Below, in pieces: positions 7,077-59,260 of a stretch of 64,000 nt of DNA. The notes under the pieces were generated by a model. The model saw only the letters and a program-made list of their open reading frames with translations, searched no databases and was not told the DNA's origin. How positions within the stretch are numbered: the stretch's first letter is position 1; each line of letters starts with the position of its first letter. Position numbers and translations under genes: made by a program. Origin of the DNA: Ulota crispa (Eukaryota > Streptophyta > Bryopsida > Orthotrichales > Orthotrichaceae); the NCBI GenBank assembly GCA_963920765.1, contig OY987249.1, positions 6,492,188 through 6,556,187 of the forward strand, given 5' to 3'.

Positions 7077-8005
7077 TTAACCCCTAAAGTCCTTAACACC
7101 CTTTCCTGGCAACAAAGCAATTTTGGGCAGTTCACTACCAATGGGTTTTTTATTTTTTTTCTTTGAAATTTGCATAAATGATGTGTCTAAGGAGTAGCTT
7201 TAAGACCCAATAATTCTCATAACTTTTGACTTCATGGTTCAAAAGTTATTGCATGATATGTTGTTTTCTTTGCTCGGCGGGCAGAAATAAAATTTCTTTA
7301 AAAATTGCTTTTTAAACTCATTTTTTTGAAGTTGGTTCTTTAGACTTCTATATATATGGGAAGCTTTGAATCATTCAATTTTGATCAATGAGATGATAGT
7401 TATGAGGAGATTTTGTTTGAGGGCAATTATGGATTCTCTACTCTTTTATAAACTTTGAAGTCCTTTATTTTACTCAATTTTCAATGTTTTGGAAAAAATA
7501 CAAAACCAAATGATGTAAAGTGTTTATAACAACACTAAAACCATTGGGATTGAAAATTTTCATTTCCATAATTGAGTTCTTAACAATTTAGTGTTTTGAA
7601 TCATTCTCTACTTCATTTTACTTACTATTTTTTTCCCATGTGTTATATAACTCCAAACAATTTGAAAATATCAATTGTGTACGCAACTTGTTTTGATGAA
7701 AAAATCCAAGAAACTACAACCATTTTGGAAAAAAATTCATATAAATATGACCTTGTAAAGTGCAATTGCCCAGATTTTTGCAGGGACAAAAGACGGCTTT
7801 TTGTCAATTCAAACTCAAATATCTTACAATCTACATGGTGAAAATTTCTGATTTTTTTTTTCAAATTTTTGGATACTAGTGTAGTAGAAGATCTTGTAAT
7901 TACATGTATCAAAAAATGTTCTTTTTCTAAAATTTGGTACTTGTACTAGAAATGGTAGTTTTGGAGCTGTTTTGGTGAAACTTAGCTTAGGACTTTAAGG
8001 GTTAA
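7077..8005. mobile_element. TTAA-flanked MITE, subfamily B (929 bp)
   Basis: It begins TTAA-CCCCTAAAGTCC and ends GGACTTTAAGGG-TTAA, an inverted repeat of about 14 bp with TTAA on both outer sides. The interior closely matches 30,869-31,802 over several hundred bases (for example the stretches around 7,350-7,470 and 31,160-31,280). No coding capacity is seen; the small ORFs at 7.6-7.9 kb are inside AT-rich sequence and look random. Confidence 0.75.
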
Positions 8006-10451
8006 TGTTTGTGAATGCCCCATAATAGACACTAAAAATGTCCATTATTGACCTTACTAAGATCTTGACTTGGTTGCTTTGTTTGTTCATTGTGGCCAAG
8101 TGGAAATCCTTTTATGGAGGTCACATTATCCCAAACTAACCATACCAACCCAATAGCAATGATGCCCATTTAAAACATAAAATTTCCTACAATGCAGCAA
8201 TTATGAGTCTCTAAATGAGCTCTAAATGATCAAAATGAATCTCATACTAAATAAAACATGTTGAAAATTTTATGGCAATTTTTCTTATACAAAATTGACT
8301 AAAATGGAAACTATGTTCACATTGACCACAATGGAAGAAATATTTACAAAGGGATAGTTTACTTTAACCCTTAAAGGACCAAAGGGCATAGTATATATGC
8401 TGCCTTAAAATCAATATTTGCCACCAATAAGAAGTTTTAATTTGGGATCTCAAGTAGCTCACTAGAACCACTTTGATCTATTTTCCAACTTCTTTGTTGA
8501 TCTCAAATATATTAGAGGTGTGGATCCATTCCAAATACAAGTAAAATACCCTGTATCGTACTGGTCACAGCGGAACGCTCAATCCTAAAGTTAGAGGTTA
8601 AACTAATCATGCACCCAATCTCCACTCAATTAAACTAAACAAAAAACAATTTCAAAGATTTTTTGTGTGGGAGTTTGGCATCAGATTTACGGAATAACCC
8701 GCCATTTTTTTTTTAATTTTCTAGAAATCACATGTGTTTACAAACAAAACTTCAGTGCACTTGGCAAAGTGCAAAATTACTGACTTGTATGTCAAGTGTT
8801 GGTAAACATTTGTGTCTTGATAAGTAGATCATTGTTTCAAGCATATGCTTTAAAGATGGTTGGATACTCACCATGTGACGTGAAGCAGAACAAGATATAC
8901 TACATTAAATTTGGATGGTGATTATGAATCATCTCTCCTCATCTCAAAAATCCGAGCCATGGGAAACGTTTCCATGTCCACATACATGCGATAGAGAACC
9001 CTCTCTGAGCACTCTCCAATTGAAGTGCATATAGAAATTAATTTAACCTCTTTGGTTCATACTCACAAACATGGTTTTCAAAAGTGTAAGATTAGTGTAA
9101 AGGGGCAAACAAGTGCAAATAACAAGCACAAAATATGAAAAAGTAGTGGCAAGATATCGCTTATTGTAGCTTCAACATAGCCTAAACAAAATAGTAGCTT
9201 GAATTCTCATGGCTTTAGTCTAACCAAAAACCAGCAGGCAGCTTTCAATGCAGAAATTTCTAATTCTAATGTCTGGTCGTCTTCTTTCCTCCCTTTTTGG
9301 CAAGCTCATCGTGAACAAGTTCTTCTTCTTGAGCAGCCTACAGACCCTTTTTTCTTGTTATTGATCATATGATTATCTTCTCCTATTGTCATGTTACAAA
9401 ATCACATAAGATTAATAAAACTTGTTAGTGGTTTATGATTTTATAGTACTATGTAGAATTGAGGTCATGTCTATGTTCGTGTGAGGCTTAGGCGTTTTAT
9501 GATGCCCCTCTCTCTTTATTGTATTCCTTATTGTTATAACATGTATCAATCCATGTCTATAAAGACATCAAAAATATCCACAAAGATAATTGATATGTTG
9601 TTGGAAAGTTGTTGCTAGTGGTTCTCTTATGCATATATCATACAATTATAATATATTAACTTCTGAATTCAATATGTGAAACTCCACGATGAAGGAGTGG
9701 CCCTCAATTAATTGCAAAAAGGTACTGCAAGCAACAAAGCATGGAGCTCACATACTAACTGACTATCCTCAACATGCAGAGCAACAGCTCATCAGAAATT
9801 AAACTCATGAATTTAGCCAAAGCACTGCAGAGTGCTGTACTGCACAATAAAATTTTCAATGGAAAACGCTGAAGTTAGTCTTATTCAAGAACAAACAATT
9901 AAGACAAAACTCAAAAATTTGACTAGACCTTGAAACTGAAACAAATCATCATTTTTCAGAACGTCCAACAGTTGACTATGTCCGCCAATCGTTTGTTCAA
10001 TAAAACAATTATAATTTGAACTTGTAGTGGAGTTGTTTGTAAGCTAGCTAGCACGCTTCTAATGCACAAATTTGCAAACTTAAATTTGGTTGATTTACCT
10101 AAGATTTTTTTAGCAATGATAAAGGTGTCCCAATTGGACATTCCACCAACTATACATAGAAATATATATAGTACAATTACAATACCACAAACTTATAATT
10201 TAGCAATTATCCTCAGCTGTTTAACAAAAGAATTGGTTCTTTGAGCTTCTTGAAAAGCTCAAAAGTCAGAGCCTCTCAGATATTCACACATATGAAACCA
10301 ACTATATAGTTTATGTGATAAATTGTACACATTTATTTTGAACTTTTCAAAATCGCACTCTATAGAGGACAGTGTTTAGAGCTAGAAATATTTATTTTGT
10401 TAAATTATAAATATCATTATAATTTGGCACTTCTAAAGATGCTTGTTTTGA
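8006..10451. other. AT-rich intergenic stretch with one orphan TTAA-type end
   Basis: No gene is supported. An orphan left-type end, TTAACCCTTAAAGGACC, sits at about 8364 without a recognisable right end. A slightly GC-richer patch at 9,680-9,960 has no open frame of note and could be an old gene or element remnant. Confidence 0.4.
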
Positions 10452-10625
10452 ATTCAAAACAAACACTACAATGAAACCCACTAAATTGTGTAGAGTAGTT
10501 CTTGTTGAATTTTTTGTTTGAGACATAGAATTTTGTTGAACAACGCAAAATTTTGCGTTGAATACAAGGAACTCAATAAGAACTTCCCTACATAATTTAG
10601 TGGATTCTAACCAGAGTTGTTTTGT
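10452..10625. mobile_element. Foldback MITE around a GCAAAATTTTGC core
   Basis: Inverted arms (about 10,452-10,510 and 10,571-10,625; 'cactaaattgtgtag' against 'ctacataatttagtg') flank a short palindromic centre ACGCAAAATTTTGCGT near 10,544. The layout and centre resemble the element at 13,946-14,122, so the two are probably related. No protein-coding content. Confidence 0.6.
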
Positions 10626-11327
10626 TAGACAGATTTTGGAGTCTGGTTGCCGTGTTGTCTATCTGATGTCTGATGTTGTGCAGGACAAAAGTTGAGTACA
10701 AGTGACATTCTTGTCTAATAAGACCCTATTTAACAGCTAAGATAATTTGAAAATCTCCTTTAAATATGATCCAAATTGTAGAATCTAATAAATATATATT
10801 GAATTGAGATACTTCAATACAATGAAATTGTAATATGCTAAGATCGGAAATAGAGAGTGCTTTACTAAAAAGTCAACTTTAAAATTCACTTTACTAAACG
10901 GACAGAGGGTCTCTTGTCCGTCTGTGACGTTAAGTTTGTTGAGTTGTCGCCATGTTGGGGAAGACAACCATGGTACTTCTAACGCAATTTTTTACAAGTG
11001 GAAGCTGAAAATTCATTCTCTCTCCTCAAAATGGTGTAATCATGTTCTTGAAATGGATTTTACACTTTACTTCTATGATTCTTTTTTAAAGAGTTCTAAA
11101 ACTGCAATTGTCATCAACAGACTTCACTATCTATAAAGTAGCAAGTTCTTCTCTTCTTATCTTGTATGCAATATCATTAATCTTAAATTCTAAAGACTTC
11201 AATCTTAGTTTCTTTGAAACAATGGAATATGAAGTGTACCTCTAGTACAGCCGCTTTCCTTGTTGTAAATTCATAATTGATATCACACTTTGAGGTAAGC
11301 TATTTAGTGAGCGTAGAACGCTGAACC
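10626..11327. other. Intergenic DNA, no gene recognised
   Basis: AT-rich sequence with two slightly GC-richer patches (about 10,620-10,730 and 10,900-10,975) that look like decayed element fragments. Nothing else is supported. Confidence 0.3.
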
Positions 11328-11522
11328 TATGAGCAGCGAGTGAAGATTTGGTGAGCAGGAATCAATTTTGAGTTTAAAATTAATGGAAAAACATTAAAAA
11401 ACAACAATTTTTCAAAAGATGAATGTTCATAATGTGCAATTGTAAGATCCTATACACACATTTATAAATGAAATTTAATATCTTAAAAAAAAAATTACGC
11501 TTACGGCTCACGGCTCATGGAT
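11328..11522. mobile_element. Short TIR element, inverted copy of the 6.6-kb element
   Basis: It ends with GGCTCACGGCTCATGG and starts near CTATGAGCAGCGAG. Read in reverse complement, the interior matches 6,617-6,806. It directly abuts the 2.2-kb repeat that starts near 11,530. Confidence 0.6.
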
Positions 11523-12036
11523 CCATTGTCAAATTGAAAGGAGCGCGCCTTGGGAACTCGCAGGGTGTATTGTTGCGATCGTGCGTTGCCAACTAAAATC
11601 GTCGTCAATCTTGATCTTCTCTTCAAATCTTCAGTATTCAGTCTTCCGTTAGCCTATCCTGTGGCTGACTCTAAAGGTATAAGGGTCAAGATATGGATAA
11701 GAGCTCACTGGATACAAGACGGATAAATCGGGACAGCAAACACGAGCTGCCGTCCGTATGACGGGATCCTAAAATCAAATTCACGATCTGCTGGCCAAAA
11801 CTCCAGATCGTGAGAACAAAGCAAGTCTCGACCATGTAGGTGATCAATCCCACTTTGTCATTACAACAATAAATGAGGTTAAATTTGGTTTAATTCAAAC
11901 TGCCCGCAACAAGGTTTACAAAACAGAATGGAAATAAATTGACAAACGAGCCTCCAAAACTGGCTAAGAATAACAAAGCCACATCCCACACATACATAAA
12001 AAATAAATCCAAAACATTCATCTTAAAATTTTCATA

Positions 12037-12126
12037 TCTTCAGATCTTCAAATCTTCATGTCTTCAAATCTTCATGTCTTCAAATCTTCATGTCTTCAAA
12101 TCTTCATGTCTTCAAGTCTTCATGTT
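12037..12126 (+). repeat. 16-bp minisatellite (TCTTCAAATCTTCATG)n
   Basis: About five near-perfect copies of a 16-bp unit inside repeat copy 1. The matching place in copy 2 (near 23,950) has only one or two degenerate units, so the array expanded after the copies diverged. Confidence 0.85.
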
Positions 12127-13451
12127 TTAATAAAAACAATGGGATAAATCACAAATAACAAGTCCTAGAAAAGCAACAACCTTCTATCTAGTGCCACAGA
12201 TGGCTCAAAGATTCAAATGCTAAATGTAATAGCAATTTGAAAAGCTCTTCTAACCTTCTAACATTGCTTTAAATTTCAACTTAATCTAAGATACTATCCA
12301 AAAGTTATGCGGGTTCAAAATAGAGGCTCTTCTTCCTCCTTACAAACTAAACACTGCTTCTATAAACCTCTATAACTTTTGTTCTTTACATCACCCATAA
12401 AAACGTAATATCAATTTAGAAAAATGATATTATTGGCTACAACCCATAAAATTTTCACTTCAAAATAAAATTTTGTCCAAAAGCTCTAGTCAATCAAAGT
12501 GTGGGTTTCAATTTTTTAAAGAGCATCGAGACCCCCAACTTCTACCCACTATAACTTCTTCAATAAAACTCCAAATGAAATGATTAAAGACAATTTAAAA
12601 AGCTATGACAACAGACTATCACTCGTAAAAATTTGAAAAGAAAATTTCATATTGTCCAAAAGTTGTAGCTCTTCAAAGTCTCGGTTTTCTCATAACAAAA
12701 GGGCAGCCACCTCCAAACCTTCACACCTCCATAACTTTCTCGTTCAAATTTCAAATTTCAAGTTTAAGGACTTTCTAGAAAGCTAAGACTATGATGAACA
12801 CTCCCTCAAAATTTTGTTGTAAAAAAATCTACATATCATAAGCTATGGCTTGTTAAAATCTCAACATTTCTTCATAGTTTGGTTTTTTGACTCCAAAATT
12901 TGAACACTCATAACATTTACATCACAACTCCAAATCAAACTTGCAAACTCATTTTCAAAAGGTAATCACACAAAAAACAACTCTTTCAAATTTCAATTCA
13001 AAATCATGTATACACAAAAAATTCTCTCACATCAAAGTTTCGGGATTTCTTTCCTCTTCCAACCAACACTCATCCACTAACTTCCAACATACTAAGGAAT
13101 CTCTTCTCCTTGATTTTGATCCTATCTAATGTAAGAAGGTGGGGCACATCAGCCCATACTCCTCTCTATCCTAACCCCACCATAAATGCCAAACCCCTTT
13201 TCCTTTCACACCTTTTTCATTCACTTCTAAATCCTTAATATTTTTTTTTATTCAAACAAAGGCAAAATATATGAGCCTTCTAAAACATCTAGATAAACAC
13301 ATAAAAAAGATTAAATTACGAAATAAACACCACCGTAAAATGGCCACGTGCCTTTGCGAGCATATAATAGAGTCAATCGTTTGTCTTCAGTCACCAAGTT
13401 GTGGATTTGGTTGGCTGGAGAAGCAGTTGTCTTTGGCTGCCCGCCGGTCCG

Positions 13452-13548
13452 GATTCGAACCCCATTGGACTCATTGAGCAGTGACGGCGGCCCACGGCTT
13501 GGCAGCTAGTGAAGCAGGAAATTGGTCCAACCAACCCGCTACCTACCC
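13452..13548 (-). promoter_or_regulatory. Possible RNA polymerase III internal promoter (A/B-box-like) in the 2.2-kb repeat
   Basis: On the minus strand GGTTCGAATCC (13,452-13,462) is a perfect B box. About 80 bases upstream of it in that orientation TAGCGGGTTGG gives a 9 of 11 match to the A-box consensus. The spacing is wider than in a tRNA and no tRNA cloverleaf closes. It may mark a tRNA-derived SINE piece inside the repeat or be chance. Confidence 0.3.
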
Positions 13549-13945
13549 CTCTGAGTTGTGCATGTAACAAGACGGCGCAGCGCACTGGAATCTATGGCTG
13601 CTGCGCTGTCACCAAACCGTAGTCCTCACCACGACCACCTCTTTTGCTTCAATTGTTGATTTATTGAAATCAACACAAACATAAATAAATAACAAGTATC
13701 TACATGATGGAGGAATTTCCATCAGGACACCATGCTCACAATTTAGCATTTCCCATCACATTTTGTTGACTACTTCTCTGTAAGAGTCTATGCAATACTT
13801 CTAACAATACTATAAGGTGCATTTTACAGACTTAAATAAAAATTGAATGCAAAAAAAAACAACCATCACTAATTACTATTGCAATCCTCAGCACATAATA
13901 CTTTATATTGTTTTGCTTGCAAATTGCACTAGAAGAAAAGTACAA

Positions 13946-14122
13946 AAAACTGCGTTCTATTTAACAAAACCATATGAAATTGATTGTACTGAGTTCTCCC
14001 TTTCTAGCGCAAAAATTCATGTTCCAATGCAAAATTTTGCTTTGGAATGTGAAATTTTGAGTTGGAAAGGGAGAATTCAACACAATCAACTTCATATGGT
14101 TTTGTTAAGTAGAATACAGTTT
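13946..14122. mobile_element. Foldback MITE with AAAACCATATGAA arms
   Basis: The left arm 'aacaaaaccatatgaa' (about 13,962) is mirrored by 'ttcatatggttttgtt' (about 14,090). The arms run nearly the full 177 bp and meet at GCAAAATTTTGC near 14,033. Structure and centre resemble the 10.5-kb element. Non-coding; borders are by eye. Confidence 0.7.
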
Positions 14123-16263: not shown

Positions 16264-16358
16264 TTAACCCTTTAGCACTAGGGCCTATCGCCTCAAATGC
16301 ATGGGCTCAATGTATTTGCAGGGGACAATTTTTGTCCTTGTCGGCATTTAAGGGTTAA
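16264..16358. mobile_element. Minimal TTAA-flanked MITE, subfamily C (95 bp)
   Basis: TTAA-CCCTTTAGCAC at the left and GCATTTAAGGG-TTAA at the right enclose a short, relatively GC-rich core. The same core occurs at 35,855-35,948 (shared 'ggggacaatttttgt'). Confidence 0.65.
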
Positions 16359-26106: not shown

Positions 26107-26748
26107 TTTACTCCTAAATATCTAAAGCCTCTTTGGAGCTTCTAGGAGTTTGTTCTAACTTGAACAAAAAGCAAAAATTTAACAAGTTGTCTAATTTCTT
26201 TTTAATTTGTAACCGTACAAATTCAAATTAGATATACTAGAGATTATATAGGAAAAAAAAAACACAGCAATATCACTTATGGATAGAAAGATTATAATAT
26301 TTAATCATGAGAGTGATAAAATTGCAAATATGACTTGTAATCTTTCAATCCTCTTTTCACATGTTGGATTCATAAAGTTGGTCACCAAAAAAATATAAGG
26401 TTAAAGAGCACAACATACATAACTCCAATCACTTTATGGCTTTTCAAAATCTCTTCTAATCTTTTTTTAAATGAATTTCTAGTATAAATTTTCATCTAAA
26501 ATCTAGTGTATTTGAGGCTGATTTCCAAGAGCTTTCACCACTACAGACTATCTAGATCCTTGTACATAATCTTGAATAGAAAAATCATAATCAATCATTT
26601 TTAAAATTAGCTTTTTGATACTAAAACTAGACTTCAAAACAAACATTGCAAAAATATAAAGTATTAAAAATAGCAGCTTAATTAGATTTGATGAGCTTCA
26701 AACTATTTTCAACACCAAATGTTGGTGCCCGAGGCATTTAGAGGTTAA
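26107..26748. mobile_element. TTAA-type MITE, subfamily A copy 1 (642 bp)
   Basis: The interior matches 32,950-33,572 and 49,521-50,174 in the same orientation; shared landmarks are 'tatcacttatggat' and 'catttccaagagc'-like words. The right end is GCATTTAGAGG-TTAA. The left end reads TTTA-CTCCTAAA, so the left TTAA has mutated. Non-coding. Confidence 0.7.
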
Positions 26749-30868: not shown

Positions 30869-31802
30869 TTAACCCCTAACGGACCATTGTCCCTTTGGGG
30901 GACGGGTTGGACTTTGAGCATGTACCTATGGCTAAACTACTTTGTGCGATTTTCTCACCTTTTTTTTGAAGGTGGAGAGTTCAAAGATCAATGTGGGTGT
31001 CTAATTTTGTCTTCATTCCGACATTTGATGAAGAAGTTATGCATGAACTTCTAAAAAATTGGGGAGGATTGCCCATTTGGATAGCCCAAAAACTTCTTTA
31101 AAATTATATTTTTTTAAATAAAAACTTGAAATTGGTTCTTTAGATTTTTTTATACATGAGAAGCTTTGAGATATTCAATTTCAATCAATAAGATGAAAGT
31201 TATGAGGAGTTTTTGTTTGCAGGCAATTATGGATTCTCTACTCTCAAATAAACTTTGAAGTCTTTTATTTTACTTAATTTTCATTATATTGGAAAAAAAA
31301 CAAAACCAAAGTAAGTAGATTGTTTATTACAACATTATAACCGTGGGGATTTGCATTTTTCATTTCAGCTATTAAATTCTCAACAATTTAGTGTTTTGAC
31401 TCATTCTCTACTTCTTTTTACTTACTATTTTTTCCCATGTGTTGTATAGTTCCAATTGATTTGAAAATTCTCCCACACATACCTAACTCAATCTCCTACA
31501 TGGAAAAAATAAAGTGCAACTTGGAGTAGAGCAATTTTTTTGTTATAAGAGTGGTCAAAGGCTTCTAAATTTTTTGGGGAGCATGGAAAAACTTCTATTC
31601 ACTTTAGATGCAAATATCTCACTCCTTTCCATATGCAATGAGCTGATTTTTTTCCCACAAGTACCTCTTCTAGTCTAGGGCAAGATCCTATGGTTGGATT
31701 TCCTAGAAACAAAACATAAAAATTCCATTTTACTAAACCTCCTAAAAGTGGCAATTTTGAGTGCTTTTCACAGAAAAATGGGCTTGGTCCTTTAGGGGTT
31801 GA
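30869..31802. mobile_element. TTAA-flanked MITE, subfamily B copy 2 (934 bp)
   Basis: The left end is TTAA-CCCCTAACGGACC; the right end GGTCCTTTAGGGG-TTGA has one mutation in the TTAA. The interior aligns with 7,077-8,005 over most of its length, in the same orientation. Confidence 0.75.
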
Positions 31803-32557: not shown

Positions 32558-32924
32558 TTAACCCCTAAATGTTGAGAAGGACAAAAAACGTCCTCTGACT
32601 GTGAAAAAATATTCTGTGATTTAGAAAAAAGTCATTTTTCATTTGATATTTTTTTAAAAGTGACCATAAACACATGGTCCATCATGGAGGACAAAAAATT
32701 ACCTCTTGAGATGCATTCATTTTTTTTGTAACCCAAATTGTGATAAGATTCAAAAACATAGTGTTAGTTCCCAAGCTGCCCTTCTTGTAATTTTCATGAG
32801 GGCACCATGTACTGTTGACTTTTTCAACTTTTTGAAGCAATACTATTGATGCCCATGTGCAAAACACTAGAGACTGCTATAGGCAAGGCAAGCCACGGTG
32901 ATCCATCAGTCCTTTAAGGGTTAA
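32558..32924. mobile_element. TTAA-flanked MITE, subfamily D (367 bp)
   Basis: Starts TTAA-CCCCTAAATG and ends CAGTCCTTTAAGGG-TTAA. The interior has no match to the other TTAA elements in the window. It lies 25 bp before another TTAA element, so the two inserted close together. Confidence 0.65.
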
Positions 32925-32949: not shown

Positions 32950-33572
32950 TTAACCCCTACATGCCTTAGGCTTTTTTAGAGATGCCTCTAAATTGAACAA
33001 AAAGCCAACATTTTAATGAGTTGTATCAATTTTTTCTAAATTGTAACTGTACAAATTCAAATCAGATTTGTTAAAAATCACATAGGAAAAGAAAGCACAA
33101 AAATATCACTTATGGATTGAAAGATTGTAATGTTTGAACATGAGGGTGTTAAATTGCAAAAATAACTTGAAGTTCTTTTAATCCTCTTAACATATGTTGA
33201 ATCTTAAAAATAGGTCACCAAAAAAAGGCAAAAGGACATTTCATGCATAACTTTAATCACTTTACAATTTTTCAAAAAAAATCTAAATTTTTTTTTGATG
33301 AATTTCTAGCATAATTTTTTCTCCAAGATCTAGTGTATTTGAGGCTCATTTCCAAGAGCTCTCAACACTATAGAAAGTCAAGACCTCTAAACAAAATCTT
33401 GAATAGAAATATCATAATCAATCATTTTCAAAACAAATTTTTTGATACTAAAACTAACTTTAAAAAGAATATTCCAAAATATAAACTATTAAAATAGAAA
33501 CTTAGTTAGGCTTATTGAACTTCAAAGTATTGTCAACACCCAAATTGGGTGCCTCAGGCATTTAGGAGCTAA
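32950..33572. mobile_element. TTAA-type MITE, subfamily A copy 2 (623 bp)
   Basis: The left end is TTAA-CCCCTACATGCC; the right end GGCATTTAGGAG-CTAA has a mutated TTAA. The interior is homologous to 26,107-26,748 and 49,521-50,174. Non-coding. Confidence 0.72.
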
Positions 33573-35854: not shown

Positions 35855-35948
35855 TTAACTTTTAAGCGCCAGGCCTATTGCCGTGAATATATGGGCTTAG
35901 TGTATTTGTCGGGGACAATTTTTGTGCCTGCCAACGTTTAAGGATTAA
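35855..35948. mobile_element. Minimal TTAA-flanked MITE, subfamily C copy 2 (94 bp)
   Basis: TTAA-CTTTTAAGCGCC on the left and CGTTTAAGGA-TTAA on the right. The core matches 16,264-16,358. Confidence 0.62.
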
Positions 35949-38945: not shown

Positions 38946-39133
38946 TTAACCTTTGAACGCCATGAATGCCTCTTTGCCTGTATATCTTGGTGTTTAATGC
39001 CCATTTTAGAGGCAATTGGATTGGTTGAAAACCAAAATTGAAACCCCACCTTGCATGTGCAAACTTCCACCCTCACCGTATTGCTGATATATGGTCTAGT
39101 ATAGCAGAGGCCCGACAGGCATTCAAGAGTTAA
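38946..39133. mobile_element. TTAA-flanked MITE, subfamily E (188 bp)
   Basis: Left TTAA-CCTTTGAACGCC and right GGCATTCAAGAG-TTAA give a TIR of about 12 bp with TTAA outside. The interior is unlike the other TTAA elements here. Confidence 0.6.
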
Positions 39134-42100: not shown

Positions 42101-42107
42101 TATTGTA

Positions 42108-43990: not shown

Positions 43991-44001
43991 ACGCATTATA
44001 T

Positions 44002-45745: not shown

Positions 45746-46308
45746 GCAGAGGCTCAGCACTTGAATGTGTTGTGATTTCGTTCCGGGGTGCGTGCGTTAG
45801 CTAGTTTGTCTTTAGGAAGGAAGACAACTGAAGGACTGGTGGGGTGACGAGGTTTTAGGTTCGGTTTTTGAACTGAATTTGTTCAAAGTGGGAAGGATTT
45901 CGTGCTTTCGGCTTTTGTAGAGAGATCTGTAGTGACGGTTTAGTGGAATTGGAGTGAAGATTTAGTGGAATTGGCTCGGAGTGTAGTGTAGTGAGTGAAG
46001 TTTGATTCGATACACGTTTCGTGTGCTTGCTTGGAGAAGTGGATCAGAGGGCAATTGGCAGGGAATTCGAGGTTCTGTTTGAAAGGAATTGGGGTTCACC
46101 AGGAGGAGTGTCTCTAGGGGACGAATTCGAGCTGCTGCTGTCATAATCTTTGAGGGCGTTTCCAGAGATAATTGTAGTGAAGACTTGTTCCTTGAGCAGG
46201 ACGTTAGCTCGCATTTCTATCTGGTCAAGCCGAAAAGTGGACGGGGATTACGAGGTTGCGGAATTGAGTTTTGAATTGGGTTCCGAAGTGGTCTGGTCAG
46301 CAGTGAAA

Positions 46309-48740
46309 ATGGCAGGCACGATGGAACTGTGGACGTTCTGGGCGGCGATGCTGGGAGTGTTGAGCTTCCTTCGTAATTTGCTTCCGAAGGAGTACACAAA
46401 CATGTTCGACACATGGATTCGGCGTGGCCTCAACCGCTTCGTGCCGTACGTGTTCTTCGACATTCCGGAGTTTTACGGCGCAGGCAACAATGAAATCTAC
46501 GACTACGTGCAATCGTATTTGAGCTCGTCCACCGCCATTGCTGCAGGACATGTCAACTTGTGCCGCCCGAAGAACGCCACACAGAACACATTTTCTCTGG
46601 CGCACCACGAGACTGTGGAGGATGTCTTCATGGAGACCAAAGTGTGGTGGACGCACGAGGTGTCGCAGCGCCAACAAGGCGCCATTCAATGGGGTGCCAC
46701 CCCCAACGATGAGAAGCGCAAGTTCACGCTCAAGATGCGCAAGAAGGACAAGAGCCGGTTGCTGGAACCGTATGTGCAGCATGTCATGGACGTCGCCAGG
46801 TCGGAGAAGGAGCTCACTCGTGATCGCCTCCTTTACACCAACGTCAAGAATGGATCCAACGGGTACCCTCACTTCTCCCCTTTCTTCCCAAATTCTTTCA
46901 TGCTCTTGCTCTATGCGTTTTTCTCATTCTAAGTCAACCCTAAGATTTATGCACGATTTCAGCCCTACGATTTCTACATTACTTTGACTTGAAGTTGCAT
47001 TTTCTGATACAATCTTTGTTGTGGTTGGTAAGATCCAGGTACAAGATGAAAGCATGGGAATCCGTGCCTTTCAAGCATCCATCAACGTTCGAAACGCTCG
47101 CAATGGACCCAGACTTGAAGGAGGATATCAAGGAGGATCTTTTGGACTTTACGCAGGGGAAAGAATTCTATCACAAAGCAGGGAAGCCATGGAAGAGAGG
47201 ATACCTTTTATACGGTCCACCGGGAACTGGAAAATCCAGCATGATTGCTGCCATAGCCAATTTTCTCAAGTATGACATCTACGACGTGGAGTTGACAGAA
47301 GTGAGCTCCAACTCGGAGCTCCGGAAACTGTTGATTCAAACCACCAACCGCTCCGTTATTGTCATTGAGGACATTGATTGCTCCGTTGACCTTGCAGAGC
47401 GTGCCAAGGCCCGCAAGGAGGCTGCTGCCAAAGACAAAGGGGATGGATCCAACCGTGGTGGCAAACCTGAACCAGAGGAGGTACATATATACATTTTGTC
47501 AATACTGGAGCTTTTGGGAATTCTTTCCTTTATCACGTTTTGTCACGTTTTTACTTGACATATTTCACTAATGTTTGGACTTGTTTGGACTATACAAAGT
47601 CTAGAAATCATAACCCATATGCAAAACATAGAGAGATTACTCAGTGTTTTGTATAATTTTGTAAAAATACTGGGAGGTTTGTGTAAAACATCTAAAAAAT
47701 TTTGCAAAATATCTGCAAACTATTGGGATGTTTATGCAAAACAAAGACCTATGTAGGAAGATCTTAACATCAGTAAATCTTTATTTATGTAGCAACACCC
47801 ATAACCGTCAAATCAAGGGTTTTGAACATGATGATTATTAATAAACATCTAGCAAATTATAGGATCCTATTAGCAAGGAAAAAATGATGAGTTTGCACTT
47901 TTGAATGTATTATTTGGATATTGTGAGAATAAGTTGTGAATTTTAAAGAGCCGACTGCAATTGCACCTAATACCAACACTAAGGTTTCATGTTCACATGT
48001 TATATATACTTGTAATTACATCTATTGACTTCCACAAATTTTCCAAAATTTTAGAGGTGATGGTTATGGATGTTGCTACCTTATACTGCTTTTTAGCCAA
48101 AGTCCAGAATTACATGAATAGTCTAGATTTTGGGGCTGATTTCCGTGTCTACGAATATTTATTGCAGGGAAGCCGGGTGACGTTGTCAGGGCTGCTCAAT
48201 TTCACAGACGGGCTATGGTCGTGTTGCGGAAGTGAGCGCATCATCATCTTCACTACAAACCACATTGAGAAACTGGACAAGGCGCTGTTACGAGCAGGAC
48301 GGATGGACAGACACATCAACATGTCCTGGTGCGAGTTCCCGGCGTTCCGCACTCTCGCCAAAAACAACCTAGACCTCGAGTGGCACGACCTGTTCCCTCA
48401 GATCGAGCAAGCTTTCATCGACAAGGCCATTGCCCCTGCCGACGTGAGCGAGATTCTGTTGAAGAAGAAGCGCAAACCTACAGCCGCTCTCCTTGCACTC
48501 CTCGAAGCCCTCAGCAAAGCTCCATCCGTTTCTGAGAAGCCTGCTGTGAAGATTGACTTCGAAGAAATCTTGCTATCTGGAGCAACAACAACTGCCACAA
48601 GCAGCGCTGCTGATGACCTTGTTGTGCCTTCTCTCGACTCCAACGACGAGTCTAGTAAAAAGGTTGAAACTAATGGAGCAACAGCCAATGGAGATGTCAA
48701 GGAAGAAGCAGTGCCTGTGGATACCGCAGAGCCCAGCTAA
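46309..48740 (+). CDS. Plant BCS1/AATP1-type membrane AAA-ATPase
   Basis: Three exons: 46,309-46,862, 47,039-47,480 and 48,168-48,740 (introns 176 and 687 bp). The phase-2 first junction rebuilds a Gly codon. Product 522 aa. A hydrophobic segment at residues 7-22 (ELWTFWAAMLGVLSFL) is followed by the plant-specific N-terminal AAA-associated region (NMFDTWIRRGLNRFVPYVFF...EIYDYVQSYL). The AAA module has Walker A GPPGTGKS 244-251, Walker B-type VIVIEDID with E295/D296, sensor FTTN near 363 and LLRAGRMDRHI 372-382 with the arginine region. A charged, low-complexity Ala/Thr/Ser/Glu tail ends the protein. Relatives sit in mitochondrial or ER membranes and are often stress- or defence-induced; substrates are mostly unknown. 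Start chosen as the first ATG of a 540-base leader. Intron 2 contains a MITE. The exact subgroup is not resolved. Confidence 0.93.
47788..48081. mobile_element. TA-flanked MITE inside AAA-ATPase intron 2
   Basis: Inverted relative to the copy at 44,357-44,674 and very similar to it. Left end TGTAGCAACACCCATAACC, right end GGTTATGGATGTTGCTACCT, with TA on both outer sides (47,786-47,787 and 48,082-48,083). It ends 86 bp before the exon 3 acceptor and accounts for nearly half of this intron. Confidence 0.75.
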
Positions 48741-49520: not shown

Positions 49521-50174
49521 TTAACCCCTCACCGCCCATGGTAGTTTGGAGTATCTTAGAATTTACTTGAAAATTAACAAAATGTTGGTATTTCGATTAA
49601 TCTTATTAAATTTTACTAAAGCGCAACCGCATAAATTCAAAGTAGACATGTTATAGATCATATAGGAAAAGAAATCACAACAATATCATTTATGGATTGA
49701 AAGATTATAATGTATGATCATGAGGGTGTTAAAATTGCAAAAGTGATTTGAAGCCTTTCAATCCTCTTTTTGCATCTCAAACCTAAAATTGAGGGTACCA
49801 AAAAAATATGAGTATGTAAAATATAACATGCTTAACCCCAATCAATTTACAGCTTCTCAAAATCTATTCTAAATTTTTCTTAAATTGAATTTTTAATGTG
49901 ATTTTTTCTCCAAGTTCTAGTGTACTTGAAGCTCATTTCCAAGAGCCTTCAACACTAGAAAGTAAAGATTTGCAATGGACACCCTTGCACAAAATCTTGA
50001 ATAGATAAATCACTTTAATTCATTTTCAAAATCAGACTCTTGATGCTGAAACTAGACTTCAATACGAGCTTAAGAATTTAAAAATCACTAAAAAAAATCC
50101 TATACAAAGGTTGAGCATCCCTAAATAAAATTTGGAGAAGCCCAATTTGGGCCCCTTGGGCGGTGAGGGGTTAA
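49521..50174. mobile_element. TTAA-flanked MITE, subfamily A copy 3 (654 bp, best preserved)
   Basis: TTAA-CCCCTCACCGCCCA at the left, TGGGCGGTGAGGGG-TTAA at the right: TIR of 13-14 bp, nearly perfect, with TTAA on both outer sides. The interior matches 26,107-26,748 and 32,950-33,572. No ORF. Confidence 0.82.
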
Positions 50175-51375: not shown

Positions 51376-54300
51376 TCACGAAGGGCGTGTATTACTCAAC
51401 TGCAAACGATCCTTGTACATGGAAACCCACCGGACGACCTGTTCTGTTTCAGCTTGAAACTGTGTAGGGCCAGACTCCTTACTAATCCGAACAAAGGGAA
51501 TCCCCAGAGCATCCACAGCTTCCTCCACCATTTGCTTAACAACCCCAGCTCCTTTGCCTCTTCCCGAATAGGGCCGCAGGACGGTGCTGCTTTCCTCCTT
51601 GCCGCCAGTGACAAGTATTAATCTCGATGCAACTACTGGACATTCTGCAGCCCGCTCAGCAATTTCTTCTAGCCAATGCAAAAGGGCGAGTTGTGAGGCT
51701 CCTTTCGAGAGAATGCGTAGATCCAGTGACCATGCTTCTTCGTTGTACTGTGGACGTGAGTAATCCTCCAGGAGTTCCCGAGCTTCCAAGAACACCAACT
51801 TTGCACGCAGACGCAAGCGTCGTGCCCACAGTGCATGAATCAGTGCATTATAGAAGGAGACGTTTGTCGCCAAATCCTTCATCGATGCATAATGTCTAAA
51901 GAAGCTTGATGACTCTTCCACAATAGGATCAGCTTCCAAATAGGCGGTGCCACCGGTTTGTGATGGCGAGAGCTCCGGTCTGACAGCTTCGTTTGCTGGT
52001 GGCACAAACACTAACCGGTAGGCTACTTGGCAGGGCTCAAATTGGCTGCATTCCAGTGCCTTGGCCAATGGCGCAAACGATGCATCATCTTGTTCTCCAC
52101 ATGCGGAAATCAATGTTCCATACGCAGCTACATCAGGTTCGACTCCTTGCCTTCCCATTTCTTCCAAGACTGCTGCTGCATAAGAGTACCATCGGCCTTT
52201 GATGTACAGATGAAGCATTGCCCCATAAAGAGCATTTGTGACTGCCCCCCTCGAAGCTGCCAAGCATATCTAAAGAACACAAGAAGGCTCAAATCAGAAT
52301 CAATTAAATGGCGATAAGATTATAAAACTTGCAACAACGACGATTCGTCCCTCGGAGCCTTAAGTCATTGAAAACAGCCTTGTTTTTTGGTCATTCAAAG
52401 CGACATGAAGTTGAAGAGAGAAGAAGCAAAGGGTATGTTTCGAACTGATGATATTTATACCTCGTGGCCGTACTTAGTCCACCCACGCATTGCGCATGCG
52501 TGGATCATGGTGGAGAATGTGTGAGCAGTTGGCTCTAGTCGATCATTCAACATTCTTTGGTAGAGCTCATCAGCTTTTTCGTAACGACCAGCTTGAACAA
52601 CAGCGCTTATCAGAGATGTGTAGGTAACGATGTTTGGACGGTACCGGACCTCCATGAGGTCTACATAAAATTGCACAGCCTCCTCATGTCGGCCTGCCTT
52701 GCCGGTGGCATCGATTATAATATTAAAGGCTATCAATGACGGCTTCATAATCTGTCCAGCACAACAAAAATGGTCAATTAAAGCTCTTCCACCTCCAAAG
52801 TAACCTAATTATAAAGAAAATCACAAGAATATTACACGTACTAACCATTTTCCCTGCAAGTTGAGCCTAAAAGAAACAACTGGGTTGCATTTGTCACTGT
52901 AGAATTCCGATATGAAGATAGCGCAGTACTTACGAGCTTGTATTCTCGAAACACACTTAGCGCTTGATCAATTTTACCAGCCCGACAATATGAAAGCAGC
53001 AAAGCATCGAAGGCACCACTCTTGATCTCCACCCCGGCCTCTCGCATTTGCTGAAAGAGGCTCTCTACGGCGTCGAATTCTCCTCTCCTTGCATGAAGGT
53101 GCATCACTTTCACCCAAACCTGGGCATCACCCAAGCAAAAGAGAACAATTACCAAAAAGGCTCCCCATCGCAAAATCCTAGCTGCCGTCCCCACTACTTG
53201 TGCTGACGTTGCAATACAACTACAAAAGAATGTGAGGCTTGACTCGAATTGCTTTCATTTCCTGATCACTAATGCTCATTCCAACTTTCTTTGTTAAGGA
53301 AACTGCATAGGCTAAAATGTGTAAGTGCTCCCAAATACATGAAAAGGATCTCTAAAATACATGAAGTTCCATCGAAGTGTAAAGAACATCAAACAGTTGT
53401 CCAGCAGTGGCACGGAGAGGCAATCAAGACAGGTTATGTGAGGGTGGAATCCTAAGAGTTATACCTTTGTATCAACACTGTAATTAGCTGATATCATGTC
53501 TTGAAAGAGGAGATCCGCATCCTCCACCAGGTTAGCCGTCCAACATGCTGTCATAAGATCCGACAATGTTTTGTATGCCACCATGAAATTACTGGCACGT
53601 ACTCCTTGTAAAATTTGCATTGCTTTCTCCAGTTGAGGCTTGTCTCCAGACAAGTAAGCAGCAATTACCTGCGTCAGAAGCAGGCAGATAACAATGTGTA
53701 GGTTAACGATTGTGCAACCGATAAGTACTGACACATCCAGAGTCCTGGTGCCGTTCACGTAAAATTATAATTGCCCAACACCTTTTCATCCTAAATCTAC
53801 GCAGTAAAGCAGAATGGATTTGACAGCCTCTACAAATGCCTTACACCCTGTCGAGCACAATCCTAACACTTATTTGGAAAAGTAATTGTCGCGTTAAGGA
53901 AAAACATACGTATTCTCAAGATAATTATTAATGACCAGTTAGACTTTGCTGCCATGTTATCTGAATCCAAGGCTTGGGAGTTAACATCACATGTACATTT
54001 ACATTGTAAACCAGCAACATCAGTAAACTTCAGATTAATGGAAAATACCGGTAAGCATATCAAAACAGAATTCCCTGGTTCAACTTTTTTTAGTGGTGTC
54101 AATACCAATGTTACCACAACGAACCCTTGCCACAACTACTACCAGAGATCTGACCTATATACTGGATCGAATTATACACGTGAGGTGCTTACCCTTTCAT
54201 GAGTAGCATTGTTCGGTTTGACTCCATATCTATCCATTTGCATCAACACCTGCGAGGCTAGGTGGACAAGCCCTTTACTTCCATAGCCTCTTATAAGTGT

Positions 54301-55520
54301 GTTGAAAAGATGAGCATCAGGATCTACTCCCAGGCCTCTCATCTCTGAGACAAGTATCTCAACCTCTGCCTCCCTCCCATTCTTAGCCAGCACTGTTCCA
54401 ATTGTCGTAAACGCCTTGAGCAACTTCAATTTCTCCTCCCTGCGAACATTTTTACATAGCAGGATTATTTACATGCAGCAGCAATTAGATAGACATTTCC
54501 AAGACTAGTAATTGTCACAAACTTCCTCTAAAAGAATTAGGAATTTTACTTGAAAATGGTATCGACGACTCACTCATCAGCCTCTTCACACGAGGGAACT
54601 AGGATGTTCTTCGTTTTTAGAAAGTTAAAAACGAGAAGAGATAGTTTCCAATCAACATCTCCTGTCTGTGCCACAACCTTGTTCCAGTCTTCCGGTGAAA
54701 ATACTCCTGCCCACGGTGCTACAGTTCTCTCAACATCCTCGCCCCTGCGTAATGCCGCAACAATCTCCACGAGCTCAGGTCTTCCCCCCAAAGCGGCTCG
54801 TTTACTTATGACTGGACTCGTTTGTCTGCGCTCATTCTGTTTATCCAGTGTCTCTCATATCAGTCATGGAACCAAGAACCTTGAATAAGCTCAGTCGATG
54901 TCAATCAAATTGATCTCCAGGAAAATCAAGATTATCAGACGAGATTTATTGAAACCAGAAAAAAACTATTGAAAACCTGAGTAAAATGAAGTCACTGCTC
55001 TAACCAGAAACTCTAGGCTAAACATTCGGCATTTAGAATCCACGAAACATGGAAAAAGAATTTAATCGGATACTTCCTGAACCTTAGCGCCAGACTATGG
55101 CAAAGTTGCAGTAGGAGTTTCTACAGCGCTCTAATCCAGCCCTAATTACACGAAAAAGGAACCGGATAAGAGGACATTAGAAAGAACTCATACCATCGCG
55201 CAATGGATTGTATAAAAACTATTTTTCAAATCAGAACAAATCAAGGAATCCAGAGATGCGTTTCTCACCTTGTCATTAGCCACCACAGAAATATCTTCCA
55301 CGAGAGCTCCAACTACCGCCGCCCTGGCAGCGACAATGCAGAACGAGGGAGACAAGGAGGAGCTCAAGGGAAACCGTCTTGAAAAGAACACAGCAGCACG
55401 CGATTGGCTAACACCTCCAGCTGATGAGGTGCTGCTGCTGCTACTCACAGAACTTCTACATCGCGAATTAGCAACTGCCTTATTATTGACGAGCCCCGGA
55501 GGAGCTCGTGACAGTAGCAT
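51376..55520 (-). CDS. Plastid-type PPR-SMR protein
   Basis: Eight coding exons on the minus strand: 55,520-55,269, 54,836-54,574, 54,439-54,193, 53,668-53,465, 53,119-52,934, 52,866-52,846 (21-bp microexon), 52,751-52,461 and 52,269-51,376. All have GT-AG borders and matching phases, giving 785 aa. Residues 1-60 are rich in Ser, Ala and Arg with few acidic residues, like a chloroplast transit peptide. P-type PPR motifs run through about 180-560, for example AEVEILVSEMRGLGVDPDAHLFNTLIRGYG and NIVTYTSLISAVVQAGRYEKADELYQRM (split here only for reference). A C-terminal SMR-like domain covers about 668-750 (WSLDLRILSKGAS; SGRGKGAG). PPR-SMR proteins bind organelle RNA or DNA and act in plastid gene expression or signalling. 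The usual LDxH motif reads LDLR here. The match to pTAC2/GUN1/SVR7-type proteins is by architecture only. Confidence 0.87.
52846..52866 (-). other. Predicted 21-bp microexon of the PPR-SMR gene
   Basis: It encodes AQLAGKM, is phase 0 at both ends, and is preceded by a U-rich tract ending CTTTTAG and followed by GTTAGT. The intron before it is only 67 bp. Because exon 5 and exon 7 (52,751-52,461) would also join in frame, the microexon could be skipped without frameshift. Confidence 0.65.
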
Positions 55521-55595
55521 TTAAAAAAATAGTGCAATGTCGCCAATAAAAACTTCTCAATCGTCTCACAATTTCACGACAGTCAAGCTCAGTCT

Positions 55596-55602
55596 TCTTA
55601 TA
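55596..55602 (-). promoter_or_regulatory. Possible TATA element of the PPR-SMR gene
   Basis: Minus-strand TATAAGA 76-82 bases before the start codon. Weak match; the distance would leave a leader of about 45-50 bases. Confidence 0.35.
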
Positions 55603-55927
55603 CCAACAAGCTCGACCCTCAAAACTCGAACGCGTGCTTCACTTCATAGAATACTCCCTGCTCAATCACAGAAATCAGCATCAATTAGACAGAGCTCGAA
55701 ACAGCAACACTAGGGCTTTGCAGCCTGGTTACTTTTTACCTGGAATTATTCAACAGGAAACATGTTTTCAGCTGAAAGTATGTCTACATATCCACCATCT
55801 CCTCTGCTCACAACACACTGTCTGATCTCACACTTTCTTCTCTCCTTTCTCAAAACCCTAGTTATGGCAGCAGAGCAGAGCATCGACCAGGCTACTTAGC
55901 TAGCTAGTTTGTTTGAGGAGTCCGAAG

Positions 55928-56116
55928 ATGAGTATAGTTTTGAAGAAGAAGACAGAGGTCATGTGCAAGGGCCTACTGTTTATTGCAAAAGGATTCACCA
56001 GACTATTTCAAGCTTCAACAGCCACTCCGATGTGCGGATTGAGACTATGCCGGGTATACAAAATCTTCGGCGTGTGGATACAGACAGCACTGGATATAGC
56101 ATCGTCCGTTTTTTAA
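55928..56116 (+). CDS. Small ORF of 62 codons, unrecognised
   Basis: ATG at 55,928, stop ending at 56,116. The N-terminus is MSIVLKKKTEVMCKGLL, basic then hydrophobic, with three further cysteine/arginine clusters; no known domain is recognised. About 75 bases upstream stands a pyrimidine-rich tract with AAAACCCTAG (telo-box-like, 55,852-55,861), a common feature of plant promoters and leaders, divergent from the PPR gene. An overlapping frame (55,909-56,124) encodes an acidic peptide, so coding status is uncertain. It could equally be part of a non-coding divergent transcript. Confidence 0.3.
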   Translation: MSIVLKKKTEVMCKGLLFIAKGFTRLFQASTATPMCGLRLCRVYKIFGVWIQTALDIASSVF

Positions 56117-57816
56117 GCACATAAACCTAAACCTCTCTAATTGCACACTCTATATCAGCAAAATTTTGTAATAGCATGAAGATCCGTTGAACGTGCGTTT
56201 GCGGTTCAAAGTTCCCCATATTTTACCTATTACAACCTCTCACATGCTAACATGATAGAGGAAATTTTGTAAAAAAGGGTTGAGGTTTAGAGGCTAGAAG
56301 GTTTCAAACTATTATCTCTTATGTCAACGTTCCAGATTATTCTCTCACTCCCATATTGTCACTGGAATTATCTTCTCAAGATAGTGCAAATAGGGAGGAT
56401 TGAGTGTAGCAGGAAACTATTTCAAAACTAGGAAGACACGTAAAGATTTGAAGGATTAATTATAGACCGTAACCCTAAGTTAGAAGCAACTAATGACCAT
56501 TCAGACTACTTTGTACCTTCTGTAAGCAACATTATAGACCACGAAAAGACCCCAGGCTTGCACAGCAATTAAATGAGATAACGAGAACAAATTGCAGTGA
56601 CTGTATATACCCTAAACCCTAGATTCTGAACCAGTAAGAAAACTACATTTTGAAGGAAAATTTTGCGACCAATTCCACCAATTCCAAGCCCCCTAGCCTC
56701 TCTAACATCCAAATCCCGGCTTTGGACCTATAGGGAAACCATGTTTAAATAAAATCACAACGCTAGAACTCCTTGAAGACAAGCAACCAAAGCAAAACGC
56801 TCCAACTATAAAGCTGGGAGTGATCAAGAAGAATTGTTATATAATGATGACTTTCTATCAGTCACTACATCCCTGCATTTCCGAAAACCTAAAATCCATT
56901 TTCTTCATTGACTAGTCCAAAGAGTACATGTGAATCCACTACTCTAATCACTACACAAACAACTCCTACCAGAATAATAAGCAGCTGCCTTAATAGCAGG
57001 TGCCTTTAGTCCAAATTGAAATGTAAAAATATTCATACATCTCTTTCAGGCAGCACTTGTCCTACAAACCTGAGTATTATCTGCAAACCTTGATATTGAA
57101 AATATTGAAAATAGTACGTAATTGTCGCATTAGAATCAGGCAATATGGTGCCACTACTACATCACAAGCGTAAACATTCAAAATCAACAAAACTCCAAAA
57201 TGTCGAACTATCAAACGCCATTTTTCACTCATTGAAAACCTCCATAACCCAATTGACAATTATATATAATCACAAAGTCTACTACAATTCTCCATGACAA
57301 AAGAAAATTGAGGACCGATATTGCTATTAATTAACACATGTCGCAATTTCGTTTGGCACCAAAACTGTCTACGATTTTTTATCTGTAACTTAGTCGAAAC
57401 AATGTGTGGGAATAGCGAACATTTTCATGCGCTAGAATTGGAAAAGAAACGCTATTGAACTAGACAAATGGAAACCGGCTGTTTGCACGAACTCTCGCTT
57501 CTTAGAGCTGCAGAACGATGTAAAAATAACCATGAAGAGAGGTAAATAAAATACACACACCGGTTAAGAATTTGCAATAAACCAAAGCTGTAGTTGTCGC
57601 AACAGAAAGCGCAAAATAACTCCAAACTCCACGAAGGGGGATTTGAAACCAGGAAGGGGAACCTTGAAAGAATCTCTGCAAGACCGAGGGAGGGAACGAA
57701 GGCAGAGAGATTGGAGATTTGGAGGGAGAGCGTGTTTTGCACGAGGAGCTCTTATTGGCCGAGCGAGTTGTCACAGCTTGAGAGACGAGAACCCAATCCG
57801 GAATGAGAGACCGAAT
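56117..57816. other. Intergenic DNA, no gene supported
   Basis: Moderately AT-rich. A minus-strand frame at 57,502-57,774 has a Ser-rich start and a hydrophobic stretch but no ATG. No repeat border recognised. Confidence 0.35.
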
Positions 57817-58313
57817 GTGGATGAGGGCGGAGGTGGATGAGGGTTGATGTGGATGAGGGTTAGTGTGGATGAAGGAGGACTTGGATGAAGGTTAGATTGG
57901 ATGAGGGTTGGGATGGATGAGGATGGAGGTGGATGAAGGTTGGATTCGATGAGGGTTGGGATGCATGAGGGTGGAGGCAGATGAAGGTGGACGTGGATGA
58001 AGGTTAGATTGGATGAGGATTGGGATGGATGAGAGTGGAGGTGGATGAAGGCTAGATTGGATGAGGGTTAGAATGGATGAGGGTTAGAATGGATGAAGGT
58101 GAAGGTGGATGGGAGTGAAGGTGGATGAGGGTGGAGATGGATGAGGGTTGATGTGGATGAGGGTTGATGTGGATGAGGGTTGATGTGGATGAGGGTTATG
58201 TGGATGAAGGTTGACGTAGATAAGGGTTATGTGGATGAAGGTTGACGTAGATAAGGGTTGATGTAGATGAGGGTTGATGTAGATGAGAGTTGATGTAGAT
58301 GAGGGTTGATGTA
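57817..58313 (+). repeat. Minisatellite of GTGGATGAGGGTTGAT-like units
   Basis: About 30 degenerate units of 12-17 bp over 500 bp. Higher-order duplications are visible near the right end (for example two copies of a 33-bp block with 'gttgacgtagataagggtt' near 58,207-58,260). The repetitive His/Pro/Ser/Thr frame on the minus strand is a by-product. Confidence 0.92.
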
Positions 58314-58369
58314 GGAGTTGGAAAATAGAATTGATGTTCCAAGAAGTTTTTGCAAGGAGCATTGGAATT

Positions 58370-59260
58370 TTATCCCCTAAATACCCAAGGCATTAGATTT
58401 TGGTGTTCAAAAACCTTCATGTTACTTTGAAACCCTATTGAGGGCACATACTTTGTTGTTTTAAGTTTTTTTTTTGAAAAAGTTGCTCACTAAAGTTAGC
58501 TTCACCATTCAAATTTCATTTCCTCCATATCTTATTTCAATTGTTTTTTGGTGGAAGATTAACCGCAAGCATACATTTTGTGTCATGAATACAGTCACAA
58601 AGCATATGAGAAGTCACCACATTGAAAAGACAGACATCAAGTTGAGCAAAAGGTGAAGATATCCCTTGGGCACTCCCTTGGGCAATAAGGTCCTTTTTAC
58701 TAAAATTATGACATTTAACAAAATCTAAAAATGCTTTTGAACTAATTTCACTTGGAATGTCTTGGTTAAAAAAATTAGAATTCATTCGCCATTGAATTTT
58801 TTTTCATTCATAATGATTTTCGGTCAATAATTGAAGCGAAAAAAATTCTTTGTATCAGATGGTTGCACTTTGACAATTGTGTTGCAGGCTCATTTGTGAA
58901 AATGTGTTCATGGATTTGGAAGGGGGGCCATTAGTTTGAACTAACAACAATAAACACTAAAGCATCCTAGGTGGTTGTTTCCCAATTTTGTATCCAAAAG
59001 TTACCAATTTACATTAGAAGTTTCAAGAAGCTCCAAAAAAAGCAAAGAATTCTATACTTATCATCATTCAATCACGTATATCTTAAGATCTACATGGCCA
59101 TTTTGGATTTTTTTGGGTAGCACCATCTAGAAGCCTTGAAGTTCAAGATTCAATGGTTACAATTTTGTTTTGATGTTTAATGATCAACTTACAAGGACAG
59201 TTCAAAAACTTCAAAACTACTTTCCGAAAACAAGAAAAACCTTGGGTGTTTAGGGGTTAA
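58370..59260. mobile_element. TTAA-type MITE, subfamily F (891 bp)
   Basis: Left TTAT-CCCCTAAATACCCAAGG, right CCTTGGGTGTTTAGGGG-TTAA: a 16-17 bp near-perfect TIR, with one TTAA mutated to TTAT. The interior is AT-rich, without coding potential, and unlike subfamilies A-E. Confidence 0.75.

Follow-up and report, generated by a model that had tools for sequence, protein, structure and literature searches.

The moss Ulota crispa carries, in a 64,000-nucleotide stretch of its genome (assembly GCA_963920765.1, contig OY987249.1, positions 6,492,188 to 6,556,187; hereafter the window), a set of short repeats with TTAACCC...GGGTTAA ends, which we assign with a probability of about 95 % to the piggyBac superfamily as non-autonomous elements. 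We observe the choice and exact duplication of TTAA, ends common to elements with different interiors, transposase-coding elements with such ends and one probable deletion derivative of the latter. The first-pass annotation, which was made from the letters of the window alone, had described ten miniature inverted-repeat transposable elements (MITEs) there and suspected a piggyBac signature, and this reading is now supported by the TTAA duplication, by DDE_Tnp_1_7 loci with TTAACCC ends and by 549 bp that one MITE has in common with a coding element. The kind of element is already known, mainly from animals, so that the new contributions are its host, a moss, its density there and the empty sites as direct evidence. 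Elements are named below by their first position in the window, and none is assigned a strand except 58370.

Exact duplication of TTAA upon insertion

The best-preserved MITE of the window is 49521 (49,521–50,174, 654 bp), which features a perfect 16-bp terminal inverted repeat (TIR). Ten copies of its family were fetched with 60-bp flanks, and each of them starts and stops at the same positions as the others, whereby 18 of the 20 ends read TTAA and two read CTAA. The flanks of these copies are unrelated and, as judged by eye, a longer direct repeat is not seen in them. The family furthermore contains an internal TTAA in the context GAGGGTG-TTAA (49,729–49,732, empty in the window copy), which is conserved, stands single in six aligned uninserted copies and, by junction comparison, has received nested insertions in sister copies.

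With no more than one mismatch allowed, a sequence pattern spanning the left junction at this internal site matched 40 times (11 times exactly) and the corresponding right-junction pattern 458 times (seven times exactly), with a single match for the control in either case; among the matches listed, nearly all one-mismatch right-junction matches represent the uninserted state. The reading of junctions covers all 11 exact left matches, leaving aside the 29 with one mismatch. In each of these 11 cases the host follows the 49521 family through TTAA and then passes into an element end, and in nine of them the insert closes with an end of the form RRGGTTAA and the host sequence picks up again directly at TTAA, while the inserts in L068 and L073 are not closed within the fetched stretch. 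The nine closed inserts measure 220 to 945 bp, both TTAA counted. By alignment, the insert in L064 is a full-length 80 % copy of 32558, that in L065 is like 7077 (81 % over 920 columns) and that in L067 is like 49521, which the insert in L071 also resembles by ends and length; for the other five, no relative was found among those window elements that do not belong to the 49521 group. Inserts of several families occupy the same internal TTAA.

As uninserted copies possess a single TTAA and filled sites one on each side, the target duplication is exactly TTAA. This is the empty-site outcome that had been named beforehand as a test of the piggyBac reading, and it was obtained in the six uninserted copies. 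A family with a longer target site duplication, which would have contradicted that reading, was rejected, since the nine closed insertions keep exactly TTAA at each side and nothing longer. Likewise, the suggestion that TTAA might be the mere outer part of the TIR of another family is ruled out for these nine insertions. A blind empty-site search, an all-against-all BLAST of the loci, yielded eight candidate gaps, one of them of TTAA type (window 49,880 against L038, with an insert that looks composite), and was dropped in favour of the junction patterns.

Transposase genes and the elements encoding them

Searching the genome with the PF13843 (DDE_Tnp_1_7) profile revealed 120 matched stretches with a best E value of 1.3e-73; as 116 of 528 first-look candidates were scored, their number is at least 120. 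All three stop-free frames that were compared with Pfam match PF13843 and no other family at E 0.001, and the frame of locus L019 matches the solved piggyBac transposase 6x67 (E 4e-20) and piggyBat 9c0f (E 6e-17). Among 14 stop-free pieces, the Asp triad is found in 12/12, 14/14 and 7/8 covered rows for D1, D2 and D3, respectively, one row carrying Asn at D3. A Cys/His-rich C-terminus, which may represent the C-terminal zinc domain of piggyBac transposases, is discernible by eye in L027, L030, L031, L034 and others. The 14 pieces are 25 % to 79 % identical with a median of 34 % (87 pairs), and they therefore represent several separate transposase lineages. PF13843 matched none of 14 control genomes, one named control being a cyanobacterium, and we draw no conclusion from this as to how rare the domain is in plants.

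The search for a piggyBac transposase with matching ends, proposed along with the first-pass annotation, thus met with success: the domain is abundant and sits inside elements with TTAACCC ends. Inspection of end pairs in 20 regions of 8 kb, which hold 22 of the 120 matched stretches, revealed full elements of about 5.0–6.0 kb in eight loci (L024, L025, L027, L028, L030, L031, L033 and L034). The elements in L030 (894–6201) and L033 (1078–6307) are homologous at 89–93 % exactly from TTAA to TTAA and not beyond, which fixes the borders of the coding elements independently of the motif. Own left and right ends are identical at 17 or more of 20 positions in 4 of the 20 loci, compared to 9 of 380 cross-locus pairs, and none of 5000 permutations reached the observed sum of end matching. 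We regard the L030/L033 borders as the stronger evidence, because the permutation sum also rewards loci holding both kinds of end.

The connection to the window is most direct for MITE 58370 (58,370–59,260, + strand, 891 bp). Its last 549 bp (positions 343–891 of the element) match the 3' end of the transposase-coding element in L027 with 84 % identity over 554 columns (E 1e-171), and a comparison with L035 gave 82 % (E 1e-154). Such a common stretch is as expected of an internal-deletion derivative, which 58370 probably is. Of 24 terminal bases, 49521 has 19 in common with the element in L028 and 21 with that in L024, and the window elements other than 58370, 49521 and 32950 reach a best terminal agreement of 13–20 of 24 bases (best of 18 ends). 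For these remaining elements, the probable assignment to piggyBac rests on the common end consensus and, in the 7077- and 32558-like families, also on the TTAA target.

Several findings weigh against our assignment. At a threshold of 15 of 20 identical positions only 8 of the 20 loci have agreeing own ends, compared to 71 of 380 cross pairs; in L035, which is one of these eight, the end counted belongs to an adjacent MITE copy. Ten of the 20 score zero, their strict left or right end being missing. The permutation sum is for the reason given above not a clean TIR measure. Long sequence in common with a transposase element was found for one of 11 window elements, the others having the terminal consensus or a short stretch in common, and TIR identity is low in some elements (8364, 35855). 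Only 10 of the 120 matched stretches are stop-free and seven of these ten cover less than 80 % of the domain model; the family as seen is largely broken, and any competent source of transposase is putative.

Some observations concern the transposase matches themselves. In L022 and L023 the matched stretches are free of stops and no clear TTAA ends lie nearby, and these matches may possibly be host-adopted genes or decayed elements. The stops within the 120 matches comprise 252 TAG, 157 TGA and 61 TAA; TAA is the rarest stop, yet a count over 18 loci found CAA (159) to be more frequent than CAG (99). This spectrum would fit methylation-linked C-to-T decay at CG and CHG more than at CHH. Three pairs of matches lie on opposite strands 15–110 kb apart (C7:18203169/18223004, C2:36765124/36779670 and C10:676128/785346), their stop counts agreeing and their scores being equal or almost so within each pair, and represent either inverted segmental duplications or assembly fold-backs. 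In L026, a long simple-repeat run (HTYI in frame) extends over about 4970–5620 within the transposase locus.

Elements of the window

All ten TTAA elements were found at their positions in the window when both ends of each were inspected. TTAACCCY is exact at 11 of the 20 ends (both ends of 7077, 16264, 32558 and 49521, the 5' end of 30869 and 32950, and the 3' end of 58370), differs by one base at six (3' end of 26107, 30869 and 35855, both ends of 38946, 5' end of 58370) and by two bases at three (5' end of 26107 and 35855, 3' end of 32950). The earlier description of TTAA-CCCY ends or a one-base variant thereof was hence right as to the ten elements and slightly generous as to their ends. 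In the 15-bp flanks of the ten elements, a direct repeat beyond TTAA was not seen by eye. An eleventh, weaker TTAA pair, absent from the earlier list, lies at 8,364–8,601 (238 bp); it is the less certain element, its ends being weakly alike (TIR identity 9/16).

BLAST comparison of the elements with each other sorts their interiors into six groups, {7077, 30869}, {26107, 32950, 49521}, {16264, 35855}, {58370}, {38946} and {8364}, which agrees with the about six unrelated groups noted before, apart from a weak 52-bp match joining 7077 and 58370. The first group consists of the piggyBac-type MITE 7077 (7,077–8,005, 929 bp) and 30869 (30,869–31,802, 934 bp), which are 82 % identical over 382 columns; 30869 furthermore has a copy in L035, with 80 % identity over 935 columns. 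Besides 49521, the second group contains 26107 (26,107–26,748, 642 bp), whose 5' end is decayed and which is 75 % identical to 49521 and 78 % to 32950, and 32950 itself (32,950–33,572, 623 bp), whose 3' end matches the 5' end of the transposase element in L027 with 86 % over 37 bp; identity within this group is 74–78 %. The mini elements 16264 (16,264–16,358, 95 bp, exact ends) and 35855 (35,855–35,948, 94 bp) are 76 % identical over 95 columns and have a 40-bp end in common with MITE 32558 (32,558–32,924, 367 bp). A further mini element, 38946 (38,946–39,133, 188 bp), has a TIR identity of 13/16. The end consensus common to the groups is about TTAACCCYTNA.

Abundance in the window and in the genome

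Ten Markov shuffles of the window contained 5.3 ± 2.0 occurrences of TTAACCCY and 3.0 ± 1.9 of TTAACYYYTNA, compared to 13 and 17 observed. When one mismatch was allowed, no clear window excess appeared for TTAACCCY (87 observed vs 100.7 in shuffles) or TTAACYYYTNA (84 vs 78). Strict inverted pairs, defined as TTAACYYY ends 80–1200 bp apart with at least 11 of 16 positions matching, numbered five in the window, whereas 100 shuffles contained 0.6 on average and never more than 4. As AT-rich shuffles often make TTAA, chance tests on the whole window are weak, and we used the genome-wide count instead. The searched assembly comprises 274.8 Mb in 157 contigs, ten of them 16–41 Mb long and an eleventh at least 5 Mb. 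TTAACCCY occurs 83,965 times in it, compared to 36,312 times for the reversed pattern, and the longer end motif TTAACCCYTVANNRNC occurs 43,676 times, compared to 316 for its reversed control. The excess of end motifs is thus clear but modest inside the window alone and overwhelming genome-wide. At two perfect ends each, 43,676 motifs would roughly correspond to 21,800 elements, an estimate that misses decayed ends and counts solo ends; multiplied by the mean length of 514 bp of the 11 window elements, this would amount to very roughly 11 Mb or 4 % of the genome.

Three families were searched genome-wide, with 40 places scored for each, the window copy and 39 others. The 49521 family gave 4170 first-look candidates and its 39 scored others are 90–93 % identical, nearly all end to end; for the 58370 family these figures are 1928 and 81–86 %, most with the same end points, and for the 95-bp 16264 family 89 and 79–86 %, most end to end. 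In none of the three families is any of the 39 others near-identical to the window element, and their bursts therefore look old.

Mode of mobilization and alternative explanations

The piggyBac elements of about 5–6 kb with TTAACCC...GGGTTAA ends encode a DDD transposase, and we propose that this enzyme recognised the ends which they have in common with internally deleted or otherwise non-coding copies. These short copies would be cut out at TTAA and put into other TTAA sites, with TTAA being duplicated each time. Excision by piggyBac leaves no footprint and passes through a hairpin intermediate. By analogy to insect piggyBac, the reaction in the moss would involve staggered cutting at TTAA, cut-and-paste transfer and seamless excision and repair, and the moss piggyBac transposase would have moved each window MITE in trans. 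The first-pass annotation had held that a TTAA-specific transposase is or was active in this genome. What the data show is that it was, most transposase copies seen being broken, and we consider the activity mostly past.

Other superfamilies such as Kolobok and Sola3 use TTAA targets as well, so that one of them might have mobilised some of the groups while piggyBac merely coexists in the genome. TTAA duplication alone does not single out piggyBac, and no coding relative was identified for the groups 16264, 38946 and 8364. On the other hand, the coding loci with matching ends that were found are piggyBac, though the search was confined to piggyBac, the groups have one terminal consensus and inserts of several families occupy the same TTAA, which makes this explanation quite improbable.

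Even less probable, at a chance of about one in a hundred in our judgement, are MITEs of PIF/Harbinger or Tc1/mariner type sitting within a conserved TTAA context. PIF/Harbinger elements duplicate the 3 bp TTA or TAA (TWA), and Tc1/mariner elements (Stowaway) duplicate TA and have CTCCCTCC-type ends. TTAA contains TTA, TAA and TA, and both superfamilies are among the common MITE classes of plants according to passages of a plant survey (PMC12550479). However, the nine closed insertions have the whole TTAA on both sides where uninserted copies have one, so that a 3-bp duplication was rejected; Stowaway was dismissed likewise, as TTAA is duplicated and the ends read CCCYTNA. Moreover, the coding elements with TTAACCC ends carry the piggyBac domain. 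That base composition or unrelated repeats produced the excess of TTAACCC ends, as the five strict pairs and the lacking one-mismatch excess in the window might suggest, is practically negligible in light of the 43,676 to 316 ratio genome-wide, the many copies with identical end points and the exact nested junctions.

Other features of the window and genome

As judged by eye from open frames, the window would encode a DEAD-box RNA helicase (471–3,713, where the DNA is rich in GC), a BCS1-like AAA ATPase (46,150–48,740) and a PPR-like protein (51,376–52,263). A 374-bp insertion at 5,616–5,991, missing from homologous stretches in L008 and L027, is flanked by the 9-bp direct repeat GGTGTCTAC and, by duplication length, is a Mutator-like MITE. 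In L008, a copy of the 32558 family contains a 741-bp insert (1661–2401) with the ends GGGYRRTTGCAAGAA and a 4-bp GCTA duplication; this is a DNA transposon of another, unnamed type, whose target measures 4 bp. Contig C157 encodes full-length psaA and psaB and was taken as the plastid genome; 46 of 48 psaA/psaB matches lie outside of it, mostly as short pieces on nuclear contigs, and these are likely nuclear plastid fragments. The psaB protein of C157 points to a moss as well: it scores 1681 bits against 7ksq, 6l35 and 8htu, of which the latter two are from the moss Physcomitrium patens, and 1643 bits against the next entry. According to passages of PMC11629750, 7KSQ is photosystem I of that species.

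Relation to known systems and significance

The moss elements agree with the piggyBac superfamily, typified by the cabbage looper moth element and its transposase (6x67/6x68), in the exact TTAA duplication, in ends beginning with CCC and in the DDE_Tnp_1_7 domain with its conserved Asp triad, and may also do so in the Cys/His-rich C-terminus noticed by eye in several frames. Passages of PMC10813416 describe the TTAA and CCCT motifs of piggyBac and a type element of about 2472 bp, compared to about 5–6 kb in the moss. Further differences from the type element are the plant host, the deep divergence of the proteins (25–79 %) and the broken state of most copies seen. Short non-coding TTAA elements also accompany coding piggyBac elements in animals, as excerpts on corals and on Daphnia Pokey describe. 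Unlike these animal MITEs, the moss elements belong to a plant, whose 275-Mb genome contains end motifs by the tens of thousands, and they possess several unrelated interiors. Bats, too, have piggyBac-derived MITEs. The Stowaway and Tourist MITEs of plants, belonging to Tc1/mariner and PIF/Harbinger, resemble the moss elements in size range and copy number, but differ in that the moss target duplication is TTAA instead of TA or TTA/TAA and that the transposase found is piggyBac.

In plants, PiggyBac is listed among seven MITE superfamilies of angiosperms in passages of PMC10004981; the moss MITEs are likewise plant MITEs assigned to piggyBac, and beyond that assignment a coding partner, common ends and empty sites are available here, in a moss. 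According to excerpts of PMC8086355, piggyBac-like elements occur in fungi, plants and metazoans, and excerpts of PMC6890710 report 1230 PiggyBac matches over 122 kb in the fern Ceratopteris. An insect piggyBac functions in rice cells, as stated in the excerpt of PMC10905368, while the matching text of PMC10619864 was discarded, as it contained just the word "piggybacking". As to the earlier notion that such a family is unusual for a plant, mere presence in plants is not new judging from the above passages of PMC8086355 and PMC10004981, which mention such elements in passing; the scale seen in the moss, with its 43,676 ends, is striking. Passages of the recent survey PMC12550479, covering 207 plant genomes with four bryophytes among them, sort MITEs into five superfamilies and one special group without piggyBac, and under this scheme such plant elements could be misfiled or missed. 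Titles and abstract openings among the matches listed in the open-licence literature contain no moss piggyBac elements, which does not establish their absence from print.

The deeply diverged transposases and the TTAA MITEs, estimated at some 20,000 or more, raise the prospect that the moss lineage hosted a long, multi-lineage piggyBac radiation, with piggyBac maybe being its leading class of DNA transposons, a tentative view to which we grant slightly less than even odds. If true, the moss would provide the first well-documented example of a land plant whose genome piggyBac has shaped to a major extent, and some transposase genes might have been kept as host genes. As a land plant that offers a transposase family, matching MITE ends and clean empty sites, the moss makes it possible to test directly how piggyBac has evolved in plants and how it has spread by non-coding copies, and the multi-copy MITE families supply ready-made nested insertions for dating the bursts.

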